Of a stretch of 64,000 nucleotides of DNA, positions 2,918 through 28,598 are shown piece after piece. Position numbers and translations under genes: made by a program. How positions within the stretch are numbered: the first letter of the stretch is position 1; each line of letters begins with the position of its first letter. The DNA is from Hyphomicrobiales bacterium (GTDB lineage: Bacteria; Pseudomonadota; Alphaproteobacteria; Rhizobiales; Rhizobiaceae), in the NCBI GenBank assembly GCA_900470805.1, contig UCCA01000003.1:324110-388109 (forward strand), in the 5' to 3' direction. A model generated the notes under the pieces. That model saw only the letters and a list, made by a program, of their open reading frames with translations. It had not been told where the DNA came from and made no database searches.

Positions 2918-3234
2918 GCGGTTCCCGTCGTTTCCCGGCTGACGCGCTGGCAGCTGCCGCGCTTCCTAGACATGGTTGCTAAGCTTGTTATTTCAAGCAT
3001 ATGGCCGCCAAATGCGCGGTTCCCGCGGCAAAAACACGCGGCAACACCCAACATATGCATCAGGCGGGATGCTGCACTGCGTAAAACGCACGCGACGCTT
3101 TGCAGCAAATCGTAAATTAATGATTTGTTGGAGCAAACGCTCCACCTCCCTCATTTTTTCCGCTTGTCCGGCCAAGGCAATCAGATGTCATTGCCCAGCC
3201 TGTACAAGCCATTGCATGCCGAAGGAGCTCTCGC
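2918..3234. promoter_or_regulatory. Divergent intergenic region between lipid kinase and MFS exporter
   Basis: This 317-base stretch separates two divergent genes and has no convincing coding frame. It contains a perfect inverted repeat with six-base arms (TGGAGC and GCTCCA) around a four-base spacer at 3129-3144, placed about 90 bases before the MFS start. It could be a repressor operator or a short hairpin in the MFS leader. A strong ribosome binding site, AAGGAG at 3222-3227, lies seven bases before the TTG start of the MFS gene. No regulator gene is adjacent. Confidence 0.45.
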
Positions 3235-4452
3235 TTGAGCCAAGTCGCCGTAAACGATTCCATCGCCGAGATCCCGGCCTCCGAGGCTCCTTCCCCAATG
3301 GCCGTTGCGCTCGTTCAGCTTGCGCTGGCTTGTGGTGGTTTCGGTATCGGCACCGGTGAGTTTGCGATCATGGGCCTACTGCCAGATGTCGCTGGCACCT
3401 TTTCAGTGACGACACCGCAAGCTGGTTACGTGATCAGCGCGTACGCGCTCGGCGTTGTCATCGGCGCACCCGTCATCGCGGTTCTGGCGGCAAAGATGAC
3501 GCGACGCTCGCTGCTGTTGTTGCTGATGGGAATCTTTGCCGTTGGCAATATTTCCAGCGCCATGGCGCCCACCTTCGAAAGCTTTGCATTCCTGCGCTTC
3601 GTCACCGGCCTGCCGCACGGCGCCTACTTCGGCGTGGCGGCGATCGTTGCCGCGTCGATGGTGCCGGTCCACAAGCGGGCGCGGGCCGTCGGCCGCGTGA
3701 TGTTCGGCTTGACGATCGCCACGCTGCTCGGCACGCCCGTCGCAACTTTCTTCGGCCAATCGCTCGACTGGCGCGTGGCCTTCGGCGCCGTCGGGCTGAT
3801 CGGACTCGTGACCATGGCGCTGATCTGGTACTACGTGCCGCGCGACGAGGTGTCCGAAGGCGCCAGTTTCATGCGCGAGCTTGGCGCTTTCAAGCGCCCG
3901 CAGGTTCTGCTGACGCTGGCCATCGCGGCCGTGGGTTACGGCGGGATGTTCGCCATGTTTAGCTATATCGCAGATACGACGATCAACGTGGCAATGCTGC
4001 AGCCCGGCATGGTCGCGGTGATGATGGTGTTGTTCGGCGTCGGTATGAATGCTGGCAACCTTGTCGGCTCGTGGTTTGCCGACAAGTCAGTAATGGGCAC
4101 CGTCGGCGGCTCGCTGATCTTCAACATCGTGGTGCTGACGCTGTTTTCACTTACAGCCTCGAACCCGTTCATGCTGGGTCTCTGTGTTTTCCTGATCGGT
4201 TGCGGATTTGCGGCCGGTCCCGCACTGCAGACGCGCCTGATGGACGTGGCGGCAGACGCGCAGACCCTGGCGGCCGCTTCCAACCATTCCGCCTTCAACA
4301 TCGCCAACGCACTTGGTGCATGGCTTGGCGGCTTGGTCATCGCCTGGGGCTACGGCTCGGCGGCAACCGGCTATGTCGGCGCCTTCCTGTCCGGCCTCGG
4401 TATCCTGGTGTTTGCCGCGTCGCTACGCCTGGATCGCCGCAGCCGCGCCTGA
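3235..4452 (+). CDS. MFS transporter, DHA1/AraJ-YdhP-like exporter
   Basis: 405 residues with about twelve hydrophobic segments. The segment GTGEFAIMGLLPDVAG near residue 41 and RFVTGLPHGAYFGVAAIV near residue 123 match the AraJ/YdhP/PbuE group of drug or sugar efflux permeases in the inner membrane. The start is TTG, supported by AAGGAG seven bases upstream; no nearby ATG would keep the first hydrophilic residues. Its 3' end overlaps the convergent HxlR regulator gene by 30 bases. The substrate is unknown; the HxlR neighbour suggests a toxic small molecule but this is inference. Confidence 0.9.
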   Translation: MSQVAVNDSIAEIPASEAPSPMAVALVQLALACGGFGIGTGEFAIMGLLPDVAGTFSVTTPQAGYVISAYALGVVIGAPVIAVLAAKMTRRSLLLLLMGIFAVGNISSAMAPTFESFAFLRFVTGLPHGAYFGVAAIVAASMVPVHKRARAVGRVMFGLTIATLLGTPVATFFGQSLDWRVAFGAVGLIGLVTMALIWYYVPRDEVSEGASFMRELGAFKRPQVLLTLAIAAVGYGGMFAMFSYIADTTINVAMLQPGMVAVMMVLFGVGMNAGNLVGSWFADKSVMGTVGGSLIFNIVVLTLFSLTASNPFMLGLCVFLIGCGFAAGPALQTRLMDVAADAQTLAAASNHSAFNIANALGAWLGGLVIAWGYGSAATGYVGAFLSGLGILVFAASLRLDRRSRA

Positions 4453-20938: not shown

Positions 20939-21871
20939 CTATCGCAATTCCGCATTGCGCGAAGCCACGCGCTCCGCCCCGAGCCGGTGCTCCCGATAGA
21001 TGATGAAGACGCCTGCCGCAACGATGATGGCGGTGCCGATCACCATGCTTGTGGTCGGCGTATCATCAAAGACAAAATAGGCAAGAATACTTCCCAGGAC
21101 GATCGACGTGTATTCGAATGGCGCGACCGTCGAGACTTCCGCGTGACGGTAACTCTCCGTCAGCAGGATTTGCGCGATACCGCCGCAAAAGCCGGCGGCG
21201 ATCAGAAACAGCTGTGGTGCCAGATCGAGAAAATCCCAGCCGAACGGCACGGTCAGAAGCGAGAATGCGCTCGCCGTCAGCGAAAAATAGAGAACGATCG
21301 TCGAGGTCTTTTCTTCCTCGACCAGTCGGCGCACCTGGATCATCGCCATGCCGCCCAACACCGATGCTAGCAGCACGGTGATCGCGCCGATTGCCTGCTC
21401 CGACTCCACGCCGCCCTCACGAAACAATGTCAGTTTCGGCCATGAGACGATCGCGACGCCGATAAGGCCTACGAAGACGGCACTCCAGCGATAGATCCGG
21501 ACGGTTTCACCGAGGAACACGGCGGCGAAGATGACCGCCACCAGCGGCAATGCGTACCCGAGCGCGATCGCCTCCGGCAGTGGCAGATGCAGCAAGCCAT
21601 AGAAGCCGAGGCCCATGGATATGATCCCGAGCGTGCCGCGCTTCAGATGACCGATCGGGTTCGCGGTGTAGAACGAAGACTTCAACTGGCCGCGATAGGC
21701 GAGGAACGCGATGATCGGGAACAGCGCGAAGAACGATCTATAGAAAGTGATCTGGCCCGGTTGGATGCCGCTGCCCGCAAGCTTGATGAAGGTCTGCATG
21801 GCAAGGAAACAGATGACCGAGGCAACTTTGAACGCAATACCTCTCATCGGGTTTTCGAAAACCGACCGCAT
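20939..21871 (-). CDS. DMT family transporter (EamA domains)
   Basis: About 310 residues with ten hydrophobic segments in two EamA repeats, each roughly five helices. Typical features are the N-terminal NPMRGIAFKVASVICF, GHLKRGTLGIISMGLGFYGL and the C-terminal half FEYTSIVLGSILAYFVFDD. It is an inner-membrane exporter of metabolites or amino acids; the substrate is not evident. The frame extends to 22030 but the added residues are unlike a membrane protein N-terminus; starts at 21871 or 21895 are both possible and neither has a strong ribosome binding site. Confidence 0.88.
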   Translation of the reverse strand: MRSVFENPMRGIAFKVASVICFLAMQTFIKLAGSGIQPGQITFYRSFFALFPIIAFLAYRGQLKSSFYTANPIGHLKRGTLGIISMGLGFYGLLHLPLPEAIALGYALPLVAVIFAAVFLGETVRIYRWSAVFVGLIGVAIVSWPKLTLFREGGVESEQAIGAITVLLASVLGGMAMIQVRRLVEEEKTSTIVLYFSLTASAFSLLTVPFGWDFLDLAPQLFLIAAGFCGGIAQILLTESYRHAEVSTVAPFEYTSIVLGSILAYFVFDDTPTTSMVIGTAIIVAAGVFIIYREHRLGAERVASRNAELR

Positions 21872-22179
21872 GTCAGACACTCGTGCATTGCGCATAAGAG
21901 GACGGGAAATCGCACCGGATTCGATGCAAAGCCACTCTGGCAGCGGTTTCAACCAAAGAACAGCGAAAACGCATGGCAGTGACGTGGTCACAGGCATTTT
22001 GCGCAAAAGCATGTCACACGACTGCATCAAATGACGGCAATGCGTAAAAACGCCTGAAAATCGTCAATGCGAGGCGTTGCCCGTTAACGGTTTGAAAACC
22101 ATGCGCTCGCATTGATTCAAATATAGCACAATTACAATTTCTATTTTTTAAGTTCGGCACCAATTTCAGGAGGCATACC

Positions 22180-23283
22180 ATGATGCCATCTACGGCTTTC
22201 GAAGATCAACAATATACGGCAACACCGCGTTCGATGCGGGTTGTTACGGAAGGGATCGGTTTCGATCTCGAACGGTTCAGCGCCGCCAACACGCACGTGG
22301 TGAAGCAGATCAAGCTTCTGGCCATCAATGCGTTGATCGAAGCGGCCCGTGCCGGAGAAGCCGGCAAGGGTTTCGCGGTTGTCGCCAACGAAGTCCAGCG
22401 GCTGGCGCAGATCGCCAGTGAGATCGCTGGCACTTTCGAGAGCAACGTTCTCGACCGCATCGGTCTGTCGCGGCGGATGGCGGATTCGCTGGTGGAAGAA
22501 CTCGAAGGTGTGCGGTTGACCGATCTGGCGCAAACGCTGGTGCAGCTGATCGTGCGCAATCTTTTCGAGCGGACCGCTGATGTGCGCTGGTGGGCGACCG
22601 ATGCCGCCTTGTGGCGGGCGCTGGAGGCACCGACAAAAGAGACCGCAAGCTTTGCGGCGGAACGCCTCGGCGTGATCAACCGCTTCTACACGGTCTACCT
22701 CGACCTTGTGCTGACGGATGCGAGCGGCCGCGTTATTGCGTCGGCGAACCCGGAATTCCAGCGCCGGATCGCCAACACGTCGCTGACGGGCGAGTCCTGG
22801 CACGCGGCGGCGGCACGCTGCCGATCCGGAGATGACTATGTGGTCGACGAGGTGCGCCCAAGCCCGCTTCACGGTGGACGAAACGCCCTTGTCTACGCAA
22901 CAGCCGTCAGGCAGGGCGGCAAGAGAGATGGCCAACTGGTCGGAACGCTCGGCGTCTACTTCGACTGGCAGAACCAGGGGCAAGCCATCGTCGAGAAAGA
23001 GGCAAATCTTCCGCCGCAAGTTGCGGATCGGACGACGGTGATGTTGCTGGACGGCGCCAACAAGATTATCGCCTGCAGTAATACGTCGCTGCTATTCACC
23101 CACTTCGCTTTGCAGAAGCAGACAGGCCAAGCGCGTGGCAGCTATTACGACAATAACGGCTCGATCGTCGCCTATGCGAAGACACTCGGCTACGAGGATT
23201 ATGACGGCCTCGGATGGCATGGCGTCGTCGTGCAGAAAACCGAGGACGAGGCAGCGATCCGGCAGGCCTTGGATCTCAGATAG
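22180..23283 (+). CDS. Soluble chemoreceptor-like protein: MCP signalling tip followed by Cache-like sensor
   Basis: 367 residues. Residues about 35-85 contain the chemoreceptor hairpin tip ([20 protein letters not shown] then [11 protein letters not shown]), the region that binds CheA and CheW. After a linker, residues about 125-360 resemble a Cache-type sensor ([55 protein letters not shown]). There is no membrane segment, HAMP domain or methylation helices. This is the reverse of the usual sensor-then-signal order and predicts a cytoplasmic receptor. AGGAGG lies six bases before the ATG. No other che genes are nearby. Downstream it is followed by pepN after 166 bases. Confidence 0.75.
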
Positions 23284-23449: not shown

Positions 23450-26098
23450 ATGCGCACAGATACCGGCCAGGTTATTAATCTGGCAGACTACCGTCCAACC
23501 GATTTCGTTCTCGAGCGCGTGGACCTGACATTCGAACTCGATCCGACAGCCACCAAAGTCGATGCGCGCCTGATCTTCCATCGCCGCAAGGGCGCCGACC
23601 CGAAGGCGCCACTGGTTTTGGACGGGGATGAACTGGCGCTTTCCGGCCTGCTTTTTGATCAGAAAGAGATGAAGGCGAGCCAGTATACAGCAACGCCGGA
23701 AAGCCTGACCGTCCGCAATCTGCCGAAAGCCAAGCCCTTCGAGTTGACGATCACCACGATCATCAATCCCGAAGCGAATACCCAGCTGATGGGCCTTTAC
23801 CGCACCAACGGCGTCTATTGCACACAGTGCGAGGCGGAAGGCTTCCGCCGCATCACCTACTTCCCCGACCGTCCCGATGTCCTGGCGCCCTATACGATCA
23901 CCATCGTCGGCGACAAGGCGGCCAACCCGGTGATGCTGTCGAACGGCAATTTCCTCGGCGGCGCCGGATACGACGAAGGCCGCTCGTTTGCTGCATGGTT
24001 CGACCCGCATCCGAAGCCAAGCTATCTCTTTGCGCTCGTCGCCGGCGACCTCGGTGTCATCGAAGACACGTTCGTCACCATGTCCGAGCGCGAAGTCACG
24101 CTGAAGATCTATGTCGAGCATGGCAAGGAGGCCCGCGCCGCCTATGCCATGGACGCGCTGAAGCGCTCGATGAAGTGGGACGAAGAACGTTTCGGGCGTG
24201 AGTACGATCTCGACATCTTCATGATCGTCGCCGTCTCCGACTTCAACATGGGCGCCATGGAGAACAAGGGGCTCAACGTCTTCAACGACAAGTACGTGCT
24301 TGCCGACCCGGAGACCGCCACCGATGCCGACTACGCCAACATCGAGGCGATCATCGCCCACGAGTATTTCCACAACTGGACCGGAAATCGCATCACCTGC
24401 CGCGACTGGTTCCAGCTGTGCCTGAAGGAAGGCCTGACGGTCTACCGCGATCACGAGTTTTCCGCCGACATGCGCTCGCGCCCGGTCAAGCGTATCGCTG
24501 AAGTCCGCCACCTGAAATCAGAGCAGTTCCCCGAGGATGGCGGCCCGCTGGCTCATCCGGTGCGGCCGACGGCTTACCGCGAAATCAACAACTTCTACAC
24601 GACGACCGTCTACGAGAAGGGCAGCGAAGTCACGCGGATGATCGCGACGCTGCTCGGCAAGGACACGTTCAAGAAGGGCATGGACCTCTATTTCGACCGG
24701 CACGACGGCCAGGCCGTGACGATCGAGGATTTCGTCAAATGCTTCGAAGAGGCAAGCGGGCGAGACCTTACACAATTCTCGCTCTGGTATCATCAGGCCG
24801 GCACACCGCTCGTCACCGCATCCGGTAGCTACGACGCGACGGCAAAGACGTTCAGCCTCTCGCTCGAGCAGATCATCCCGGCCACACCCGGGCAGACCGA
24901 CAAGCAGCCGATGCACATCCCGCTGAGTATCGCTCTGTTTTCGGAAGATGGCGCTGCCCTAGAACCGTCTTCGGTCGAGGGTGCGGAATATGCCGACAAT
25001 GTGCTGCATCTGACGGAGCGAGCCCAGACCGCCGTGTTCAAGGGTATCGGCTCGCGGCCGATCATCTCGCTGAACCGCAGCTTCTCCGCGCCGATCAACC
25101 TGCATTTCGATCAGTCGCCCGCCGACCTCGCTTTGCTGGCGCGGCATGAGACCGACCACTTCGCCCGCTGGCAGGCGCTGACGGATCTGGCACTGCCTAC
25201 GCTGCTCGGCGCCGCGCGTGATGCCCGCGACGGCAAGGCCACGGTCGCTGCCAAACAATTCGTCGATGCCCTGCTTGCCGCCGCGGCAGACGACAGCCTC
25301 GAGCCGGCCTTCCGCGCCCAGGTTCTCGCACTTCCGAGCGAATCCGACATCGCCCGCGAACTCGGCAACAACAACGATCCTGACGCCATTCACGCAGGCC
25401 GCCAGGCCGTGATGCGCCAGGTGGCGGAAGCCGGAAGAGCTGTATTTTCGGCCCTCTACGACAGCATGACCACGCCCGGCGACTTCAGCCCGGATGCAGC
25501 CAGCGCCGGACGCCGCGCGCTTCGCAACACTGCGCTCACCTATCTGTCCTACGCCGAGAACACGCCGGCGCGGGCCAAGGCTGCCTTCGACGCGGCCAAC
25601 AACATGACCGACCTGATGCAGGCGCTGACCATCCTCGCACATCGTTTCCCGGATAGCGACGAGGCCAGCAAGGCGCTGTCGACGTTCCAGGAGCGTTTCG
25701 CCGACAATGCGCTCGTCATCGACAAGTGGTTCTCGGTGCAGGCCACCATCCCCGGTGCGGCAACGCTTGATCGCGTCGTCAAGCTCACGGAAAATCCGCT
25801 CTTTAAGTGGACCAACCCGAACCGCGTCCGTTCGCTGGTCGGCACATTTGCTTTCGGAAACCCGACCGGCTTCGGACGGGCGGATGGCGAAGGCTATCGG
25901 TTCCTCGCGCGGCAGATCCTCGACATCGACGGTCGCAACCCACAGTTGGCGGCCCGGATCCTCACATCGATGCGCTCCTGGCGCTCTCTGGAGCCCGTTC
26001 GGGCGGAACATGCGCGCAAGGCGCTGGCCGATATCGCTGCTGCGGAAAGCCTGTCGACTGATGTTCACGACATCGTCGAACGCACCCTCAACGGATGA
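23450..26098 (+). CDS. pepN: Aminopeptidase N (M1 family)
   Basis: 882 residues, the length of gammaproteobacterial-type PepN. The exopeptidase motif NMGAMENKGLNVFNDKYV is near residue 268, and the zinc site HEYFHNWTGNR near 303 (HExxH) with the distal glutamate in CLKEGLTVYRDHEF about 18 residues later. It is a cytoplasmic zinc aminopeptidase that trims N-terminal residues from peptides. The start at 23450 follows AGGGA; an upstream in-frame start at 23396 would add 18 residues without homology. A GC hairpin follows the stop. Confidence 0.95.
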   Translation: MRTDTGQVINLADYRPTDFVLERVDLTFELDPTATKVDARLIFHRRKGADPKAPLVLDGDELALSGLLFDQKEMKASQYTATPESLTVRNLPKAKPFELTITTIINPEANTQLMGLYRTNGVYCTQCEAEGFRRITYFPDRPDVLAPYTITIVGDKAANPVMLSNGNFLGGAGYDEGRSFAAWFDPHPKPSYLFALVAGDLGVIEDTFVTMSEREVTLKIYVEHGKEARAAYAMDALKRSMKWDEERFGREYDLDIFMIVAVSDFNMGAMENKGLNVFNDKYVLADPETATDADYANIEAIIAHEYFHNWTGNRITCRDWFQLCLKEGLTVYRDHEFSADMRSRPVKRIAEVRHLKSEQFPEDGGPLAHPVRPTAYREINNFYTTTVYEKGSEVTRMIATLLGKDTFKKGMDLYFDRHDGQAVTIEDFVKCFEEASGRDLTQFSLWYHQAGTPLVTASGSYDATAKTFSLSLEQIIPATPGQTDKQPMHIPLSIALFSEDGAALEPSSVEGAEYADNVLHLTERAQTAVFKGIGSRPIISLNRSFSAPINLHFDQSPADLALLARHETDHFARWQALTDLALPTLLGAARDARDGKATVAAKQFVDALLAAAADDSLEPAFRAQVLALPSESDIARELGNNNDPDAIHAGRQAVMRQVAEAGRAVFSALYDSMTTPGDFSPDAASAGRRALRNTALTYLSYAENTPARAKAAFDAANNMTDLMQALTILAHRFPDSDEASKALSTFQERFADNALVIDKWFSVQATIPGAATLDRVVKLTENPLFKWTNPNRVRSLVGTFAFGNPTGFGRADGEGYRFLARQILDIDGRNPQLAARILTSMRSWRSLEPVRAEHARKALADIAAAESLSTDVHDIVERTLNG

Positions 26099-26279: not shown

Positions 26280-28594
<2,315 letters not shown>

Positions 28595-28598
<4 letters not shown>

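Follow-up and report, generated by a model that had tools for sequence, protein, structure and literature searches.

A widespread family of soluble mini chemoreceptors with an N-terminal signalling tip and a C-terminal double Cache domain, in several lineages encoded next to an ammonium transporter

The window, i.e., the whole stretch of 64,000 nucleotides that was analysed, contains a gene whose product starts with the signalling tip of a chemoreceptor and ends with a Cache-like sensor domain. A protein of this order raises the question of whether it is an intact chemoreceptor at all and, if so, what it might sense inside the cell and to which partner it might report. The features of the window that bear on this question are the following:

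20939..22030, minus strand: neighbouring gene for an EamA-type transporter, divergent (Pfam EamA, E = 1e-24)
22168..22173, plus strand: ribosome-binding site AGGAGG, 6 bases 5' of the ATG, seen in the sequence
22180..23283, plus strand: mini chemoreceptor gene; soluble product of 367 aa with the tip at its N-terminus and dCache at its C-terminus
22216..22482, plus strand: putative shortened signalling hairpin, residues ~13-101, tip at 58-59 (Pfam MCPsignal and covariation)
22477..23259, plus strand: predicted dCache sensor domain, residues ~100-360 (VIA-align Z scores, Foldseek)
22537..22602, plus strand: residues 120-141, where the first Cache helix ends, nearly invariant (invariant columns of alignment A1)
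23450..26098, plus strand: neighbouring gene for an M1-family aminopeptidase, PepN-like (Pfam Peptidase_M1; in-frame ATG, upstream starts possible)
26280-28598, plus strand: gene for a sensor kinase that has two PAS domains, located between those for PepN and GlnE

The gene, its neighbours and its relatives

The open reading frame was confirmed at 22180-23283 of the plus strand, with the ATG at 22180 and a stop codon that ends at 23283. Relatives are encoded by 572 of at least 596 pattern matches, and 80 loci were kept. A search for the same domain order, which the sequence-only reading had called for, found it in 79 of these 80 loci, namely in those that were aligned; L058 was left out of the locus alignment, and L072, which is among the 79 but breaks off early, was dropped from later alignment on account of its short frame. 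Alignments A1 and A2 comprise 27 of 46 non-redundant rows, and most of the columns of residues 120-141 that are invariant in A1 are kept in 149 members from both subfamilies (see below). Comparison of the window gene with four tested loci of the 80 yielded dN/dS values of 0.04-0.10 (dS was saturated in one case). The frame is a genuine gene that purifying selection maintains. The shortness of the protein and a broken remnant in one member of the genus would fit an assembly artefact or a pseudogene left by truncation of a membrane chemoreceptor, but this explanation is contradicted by the layout shared among the aligned loci, the dN/dS of 0.04-0.10 and the good ribosome-binding site, and we regard it as practically excluded. 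The window genome (6.5 Mb) has 32 MCPsignal matches, and the Cache profile of the family matches once.

The neighbourhood of the gene is variable. Of the 80 named loci, 51 contain an EamA gene and 53 a PepN gene, whereas in 26, some of them from Rhizobium (L062, L070), all five of the tested window neighbours are missing. EamA and PepN suggest no function and are not constant around the gene, and glnE, some 5.3 kb downstream, is too far away to serve as a clue.

The family comprises hundreds of relatives, is widespread and falls into two deep subfamilies. The closest named relatives of the window protein share 73-94% identity with it and stem mostly from Rhizobium and its allies; the laboratory strain Rhizobium johnstonii 3841 encodes an ortholog (L015) at 77% identity. 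Among 385 sampled alphaproteobacterial genomes, 40 gave matches with the Cache profile; two of these (G537, G595) have long proteins only, and the remaining 38 carriers were used for the ammonium transporter test described below. A sample of the phylum comprised 36 carriers, five of them with long proteins only (G196, G225, G360, G382, G389) and one with a remnant only (G253). The receptor frame of G481 is partial. Two genomes have two mini receptor copies close to each other (G689, L155 2745-4802, minus strand; G432, L154 3794-7115, minus strand), and the N-terminal sequences of the paired copies are clearly different. Divergent members with the same short tip occur in L153 (2500-3561, minus strand) and L156 (2405-3400, plus strand; Cache profile E = 3e-39 and 3e-34, respectively) and may constitute a third subfamily. 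Loss is seen as well: a genome of the same genus as the window retains only the last ~50 codons (L157, ~3219-3386) between an EamA-like transporter gene and PepN, and the gene is therefore dispensable there. The frame-broken copy in L072, 77% identical and flanked by EamA and PepN, resides on a contig of a metagenome-assembled genome labelled Arenimonas, which is probably a mis-binned Rhizobium-like contig.

Signalling tip, hairpin and sensor domain

In the window protein, Pfam places the chemoreceptor signalling domain MCPsignal at residues 38-100 only, corresponding to positions 43-108 of the 172 in the profile (E = 4e-16; 59.8 bits versus a cut-off of 34.6). The domain is matched by all 27 members of alignment A1 and by all 19 of alignment A4. 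That the tip is N-terminal and the Cache domain C-terminal, as had been proposed from the sequence alone, is borne out by Pfam, by an AlphaFold model and by structural alignment. The same holds for the proposed lack of membrane segments, HAMP and methylation helices. HAMP is absent among the Pfam matches listed for the window protein, no membrane-like segment was detected in it (maximum Kyte-Doolittle value 1.03 in 19-residue windows) and a hydropathy of at least 1.6 is reached by none of 150 family rows. The strict methylation consensus was not found in the window protein, in which a single loose match occurs at residues 103-110; together with the partial MCPsignal match this leaves no sign of an adaptation region.

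The tip itself is almost invariant. Counted over 149 of 150 distinct rows, 97 of them with AD and 52 with CD in front of a conserved RWW motif, the columns matching L378, N381, A382, V384 (as Ile), G390, G393, F396, A400 and E402 of Tsr are invariant. The trimer contacts E385 and R388 of Tsr have matching columns that are conserved in 147 and 146 rows, respectively, out of the 149. The earlier doubt that so short a signalling part could form standard trimers of dimers thus finds no support in the conservation pattern, which rather suggests that trimer contacts are retained. A Cache domain only ~44 residues away from the tip may nevertheless limit mixing with full-length receptors.

The distance between the motifs of the tip and of the Cache helix is 77 residues, i.e., 11 heptads, in 134 of 149 members, and 73, 80, 81 and 78 residues in eight, four, two and one, respectively. 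Fourteen of these 15 deviating spacings differ by -4, +3 or +4 residues. Coiled coils tolerate length changes of just this kind, and the helix between tip and sensor therefore resembles a rigid rod that keeps its register. Covariation between columns 12-105, measured as mutual information over 150 rows, peaks at the antidiagonal i+j = 116 (score 6.35, reached in 0 of 2000 permutations), and the peak recurs within each subfamily alone (1 and 7 of 2000 permutations, respectively). Strongly covarying pairs reach out to 13-99, 17-101 and 21-95. This pattern supports an antiparallel hairpin that has the tip at its centre and arms ~44 residues long. In the parallel control (j-i constant), the top score of 5.6 at a distance of 11 nearly equals that of the hairpin, as expected from the spacing within a helix, while at long range the control falls to 2.4. 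The AlphaFold monomers speak against the hairpin in that they draw it as an almost straight helix, with one non-helical residue (58) in the window protein and none in a relative, which is why covariation was used for the hairpin. We tentatively take the missing turn in these models as a limit of shallow alignments and of monomer prediction.

The AlphaFold model of the window protein (pLDDT 85.5, pTM 0.70) is informative with respect to the sensor. Its residues ~100-360 align with solved dCache domains with Z scores of 17.6-21.7 among the 50 VIA-align rows listed; the values are 21.4 for DctB (rmsd 2.3 over 221 residues), 18.9 for PctC, 18.9 for CtaA and 18.1 for McpX. A model of a protein from the second subfamily (pLDDT 89) behaves alike (Z 16.6-21.5 with dCache domains, 21.5 with DctB), and both subfamilies can be aligned across the whole Cache domain (hhalign probability 100, E = 1e-85). 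According to the models, the C-terminal part of the window protein adopts the fold of a double Cache (dCache) domain, which opens with a long helix. The sequence-only reading had assigned a Cache-like domain to residues 125-360. The fold stood up to structural comparison; the start did not, since the sensor begins near residue 100, where its first helix continues unbroken from the C-terminal arm of the receptor part (helix 59-132 in the model).

Sequence profiles see this fold less clearly. The dCache_1 match of the window protein (residues 160-313, E = 6e-4) lies under the cut-off of that Pfam family, and at E ≤ 0.01 dCache_1 is found in 26 of 27 members of A1 and 17 of 19 of A4. A sequence search of the PDB with the Cache profile of the family returned no usable match (best E = 0.7), such that only fold comparison works, and among NCBIfam models no equivalog came close to its cut-off for the window protein. 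When the HAMP receptor L149, which has a related Cache domain, was used as a bridge to PctA-type receptors, solved structures were matched through its HAMP and signalling part only. In the amino-acid sensors of the dCache_1AA type, a key arginine (R126 of PctA) precedes the conserved W128 by two residues. With the invariant W207 of the window protein paired by eye with W128, the residue at the corresponding position is acidic (E or D) in 73 of the 97 members of one type and a glutamate in 27 of the 52 members of the other. The extracytoplasmic placement between two membrane helices that is usual for dCache domains does not apply to this family, as judged by hydropathy.

Co-occurrence with CheA and proximity to amt genes

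The CheA dimerisation domain is present in 40 of 40 carriers within the class, as compared to 169 of all 385 genomes (P = 3e-16, relatedness ignored), and in 38 of 38 when the two genomes with long proteins only are removed (P = 2e-15, relatedness ignored). Counted by genus, the figures are 32 of 32 for carriers versus 133 of 277. CheA is likewise present in each of the 29 additional carriers that the phylum sample contributed, five of them long-only and one remnant-only. The proposal that the protein is a cytoplasmic sensor that plugs into CheA arrays without adaptation is consistent with this strict co-occurrence and with the conservation of the tip. In G167 (L158, 2637-7822), the mini receptor gene is divergent from a gene for CheA with a C-terminal receiver, with one small called frame in between, and small CheW-like and receiver-like genes, both assigned by eye, follow cheA. 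The comparison of neighbouring proteins took in 67 of 72 proteins, and 25 of 122 families were listed.

Related Cache domains are not confined to the mini receptors. They occur twice in each of several proteins of 850-940 aa (L145, L146, L147, L148, L151; G382, from the order of the window, is among the genomes), four of which, L145 being the exception, end with a CheW domain (L146 1083-3671, L147 909-3467, L148 392-3199 and L151 1829-4468, all on the minus strand). These CheW-ending proteins come from genomes outside the taxonomic family of the window organism. The hydropathy peaks of the long proteins (1.5-2.0) are below those of two HAMP receptors (2.7-2.9), and the long proteins are therefore probably, though not certainly, soluble. 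A related Cache domain is also present in these two HAMP receptors, L149 (Pfam and profile) and L152 (profile only).

A second association, which the sequence-only reading gave no indication of, concerns genes for ammonium transporters (Amt). It was spotted post hoc in 20 regions (with the target in 19) and then tested on the 38 class carriers, which include most of these. An amt gene lies within 2 kb of the receptor gene in four of the 38, compared to 0.11 expected (P = 5e-6, relatedness ignored), and within 6 kb in five; the other 33 have none at that distance. In the order of G743, where 8 of 33 genomes encode the receptor, Amt adjoins it in all eight, seven of which have no further amt gene. 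Of the 88 genomes from the order of G355, 13 encode the receptor; it adjoins Amt in eight of them, the eighth recognized by a motif at a contig edge, while the other five are without it. Both orders were chosen because one member had the link, so these numbers show that it is widespread there and do not give its overall frequency. Among the 80 named loci, tblastn detects Amt next to the receptor in L073, L079, L083 and L088; the contig of L079 equals in length that of G857, one of the genomes counted in the two orders. Of the 19 pairs that were mapped, ten have Amt upstream on the receptor strand, four have it downstream, five are divergent and none is convergent, and the gaps between the tblastn matches of the two genes are 25-345 bases long. 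No gene for a PII protein was found beside the linked amt genes when their flanking DNA was searched with one PII query by tblastn; the only PII match belongs to a PII-Amt pair in L168, in which Amt is 4.8 kb away from the receptor gene. Other receptors do not share this proximity: none of 62 MCPsignal matches over the cut-off in 15 genomes, which were chosen for their Amt link, is located near Amt in a comparison by eye that left uncounted a below-cut-off match, G753:C17, at 1.5 kb from Amt. Given how these genomes were chosen, the 0 of 62 counts as evidence and the accompanying Fisher value does not. The genomes G673 and G750 (L129, L182; ~2.1-2.2 Mb) have two MCPsignal matches each, one of them the mini receptor beside the only amt gene.

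In a tree of 73 rows, 20 bear the Amt label. They are spread over both deep subfamilies, and the label requires seven changes, at least six of them forced by well-supported branches, as compared to a mean of 17.8 after shuffling. The linkage thus clusters on the tree, and the genomes are not independent. The Amt-linked pair L073/L083 is sister (support 100/98) to the clade of 15 rows that holds the window. By tblastn of flanking DNA, no amt gene was found beside the receptor gene in carriers of the family to which the window organism belongs or of the families f2 and f3 of its order, nor within the 4-kb flanks of the Rhizobium loci, and the one amt gene of the window genome is on another contig. 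A nitrogen-related reading for Rhizobium is therefore one by descent and not by context. In G525 and G615, the genomes carrying the L156 type, no Amt match was found.

Proposed function, alternatives and known systems

Taken together, we favour, with a probability of roughly 60%, the interpretation that the window protein is a cytosolic, adaptation-free mini chemoreceptor that passes on to CheA arrays a signal from inside the cell, perhaps one related to nitrogen. The ligand of the cytosolic dCache domain would be a small molecule within the cell. The first helix of this domain continues, according to the model, unbroken into one arm of the shortened hairpin, the tip of which would dock on CheW and CheA, as suggested by its conservation. 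Ligand binding could alter the packing of the first helices in the dimer, and this change would travel to the tip along the helix, whose heptad register is fixed, and bias CheA. Since the chain ends freely after the Cache domain, the first helix of which is itself a receptor arm, the architecture suggests that output leaves through the N-terminal helix. In several lineages, the neighbouring amt genes hint at a connection between the quantity that is sensed and the uptake of ammonium. For the family, we infer a nitrogen-related ligand such as ammonium, glutamine or a related metabolite, less surely so for Rhizobium; the docking on CheA and CheW, the ligand, the direction of the signal and any role in nitrogen sensing in the window organism are likewise deductions from the data presented above. 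One may go further and tentatively envisage a new class of nitrogen chemoreceptors, although we put its chances below even. Here, the dCache domain would read the ammonium entering via Amt, or glutamine derived from it, such that uptake steers swimming; the mini receptor would sit beside Amt at the usual place of GlnK, and the same type of Cache domain would have been joined to CheA arrays twice, once by a receptor tip and once by fusion to CheW.

Three alternatives need to be weighed. A rather unlikely one, still the strongest of the three, retains an array-docking chemoreceptor and assumes that its ligand in Rhizobium has nothing to do with nitrogen, the link to Amt being a later use in some lineages. 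The Rhizobium loci without an Amt match in their 4-kb flanks, their neighbours, which are mostly EamA and PepN, and the seven changes of the Amt label on the tree agree with this idea. It has to accommodate, on the other hand, that the linkage occurs in both deep subfamilies, including the sister pair of the window clade (L073/L083, 100/98), and that the core of the sensor is conserved throughout the family. Less probable in our view is a soluble modulator or decoy, a dimer that binds CheW or the P5 domain of CheA, is excluded from trimers and titrates or caps arrays depending on the metabolite bound. Arms of ~44 residues place the Cache domain where longer receptors still have their bundle, and the adaptation region is absent, both of which would fit this view; yet the trimer-contact columns are kept in 146-147 of 149 members, and G673 and G750 each have just one other receptor match, the mini receptor being the second.

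The most remote of the three regards the receptor tip as a relic and the protein as an independent metabolite sensor with a different partner, e.g., Amt, a view to which we assign very little weight. An Amt neighbour without an adjoining PII match would suit such a sensor, and Amt domains can themselves serve as ammonium sensors, as described for KsAmt5 in PMC8534201. Against a relic stands the tip as one of the most conserved parts of the protein in both subfamilies, as does the presence of CheA in all 69 carriers examined. If the interpretation as a mini chemoreceptor reporting to CheA is right, minimal chemoreceptors whose sensing takes place in the cytosol, by means of a domain regarded as extracellular, form a large family and are wired through the first and not the last helix of the sensor. 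The family would offer a compact, soluble and methylation-free system for finding the minimal receptor needed to control CheA and a candidate receptor for ammonium or nitrogen taxis.

In kind, soluble chemoreceptors are known; the present family is a widespread and conserved but unusually built representative, for which the lead to nitrogen is new and testable. A C-terminal dCache domain joined to a receptor tip, or a receptor-Amt pair, was not described in the literature searched, which covered few subscription papers. The membrane chemoreceptors PctC, CtaA and McpX (dCache_1) have the sensor fold in common with the window protein (Z about 18-19). In receptors of this type, the Cache domain is periplasmic and N-terminal; a membrane helix, a HAMP domain and a hairpin of full length with methylation sites come after it. 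According to Upadhyay et al. (PMC4822843), membrane Cache receptors signal through the C-terminal Cache helix, whereas an N-terminal output helix is proposed for the window protein. Intracellular dCache domains are on record as exceptions in PMC4822843 and PMC10104139. Among them, the dCache_1AM proteins of Actinobacteria are described as stand-alone and encoded in an operon with a transcription factor (PMC10104139); in contrast, the window dCache is fused to a receptor tip and has an EamA transporter and PepN as neighbours. KsAmt5 (PMC8534201) is a covalent fusion of Amt and kinase, while here a separate soluble receptor has an adjoining amt gene in some lineages.

TlpD from Helicobacter pylori is soluble, with a C-terminal sensor and without canonical methylation sites (PMC12871147). 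Receptors of this CZB type resemble the window protein in these respects and in their shortened coiled coil. They differ in that their sensor is the zinc-binding CZB helix bundle and not dCache, that TlpD has an N-terminal PAS domain in addition and that the coiled coil has about half the length of that of Tsr, as compared to arms of ~44 residues in the window protein. CZB (three His, one Cys) is absent among the Pfam matches listed at E ≤ 10 for the window protein. Cytoplasmic arrays of other systems consist of trimers of dimers between two baseplates ~27-35 nm apart (PMC3964821); mini receptors would probably be too short to bridge two such baseplates in the customary manner. Six cytosolic receptors are reported for Agrobacterium fabrum in PMC12654446, and the sensor type is given as unknown for eight of its twenty receptors. 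If our interpretation holds, the family may identify some cytosolic chemoreceptors that are listed without a recognisable sensor domain. Also comparable is MtpA (maq22A_c14925) from Methylobacterium aquaticum, a cytosolic receptor for formaldehyde taxis in which, according to PMC10613068, only an MCP signalling domain was detected: likened by description alone, it matches the proposed mini receptor in being cytosolic and in reading a metabolic product.
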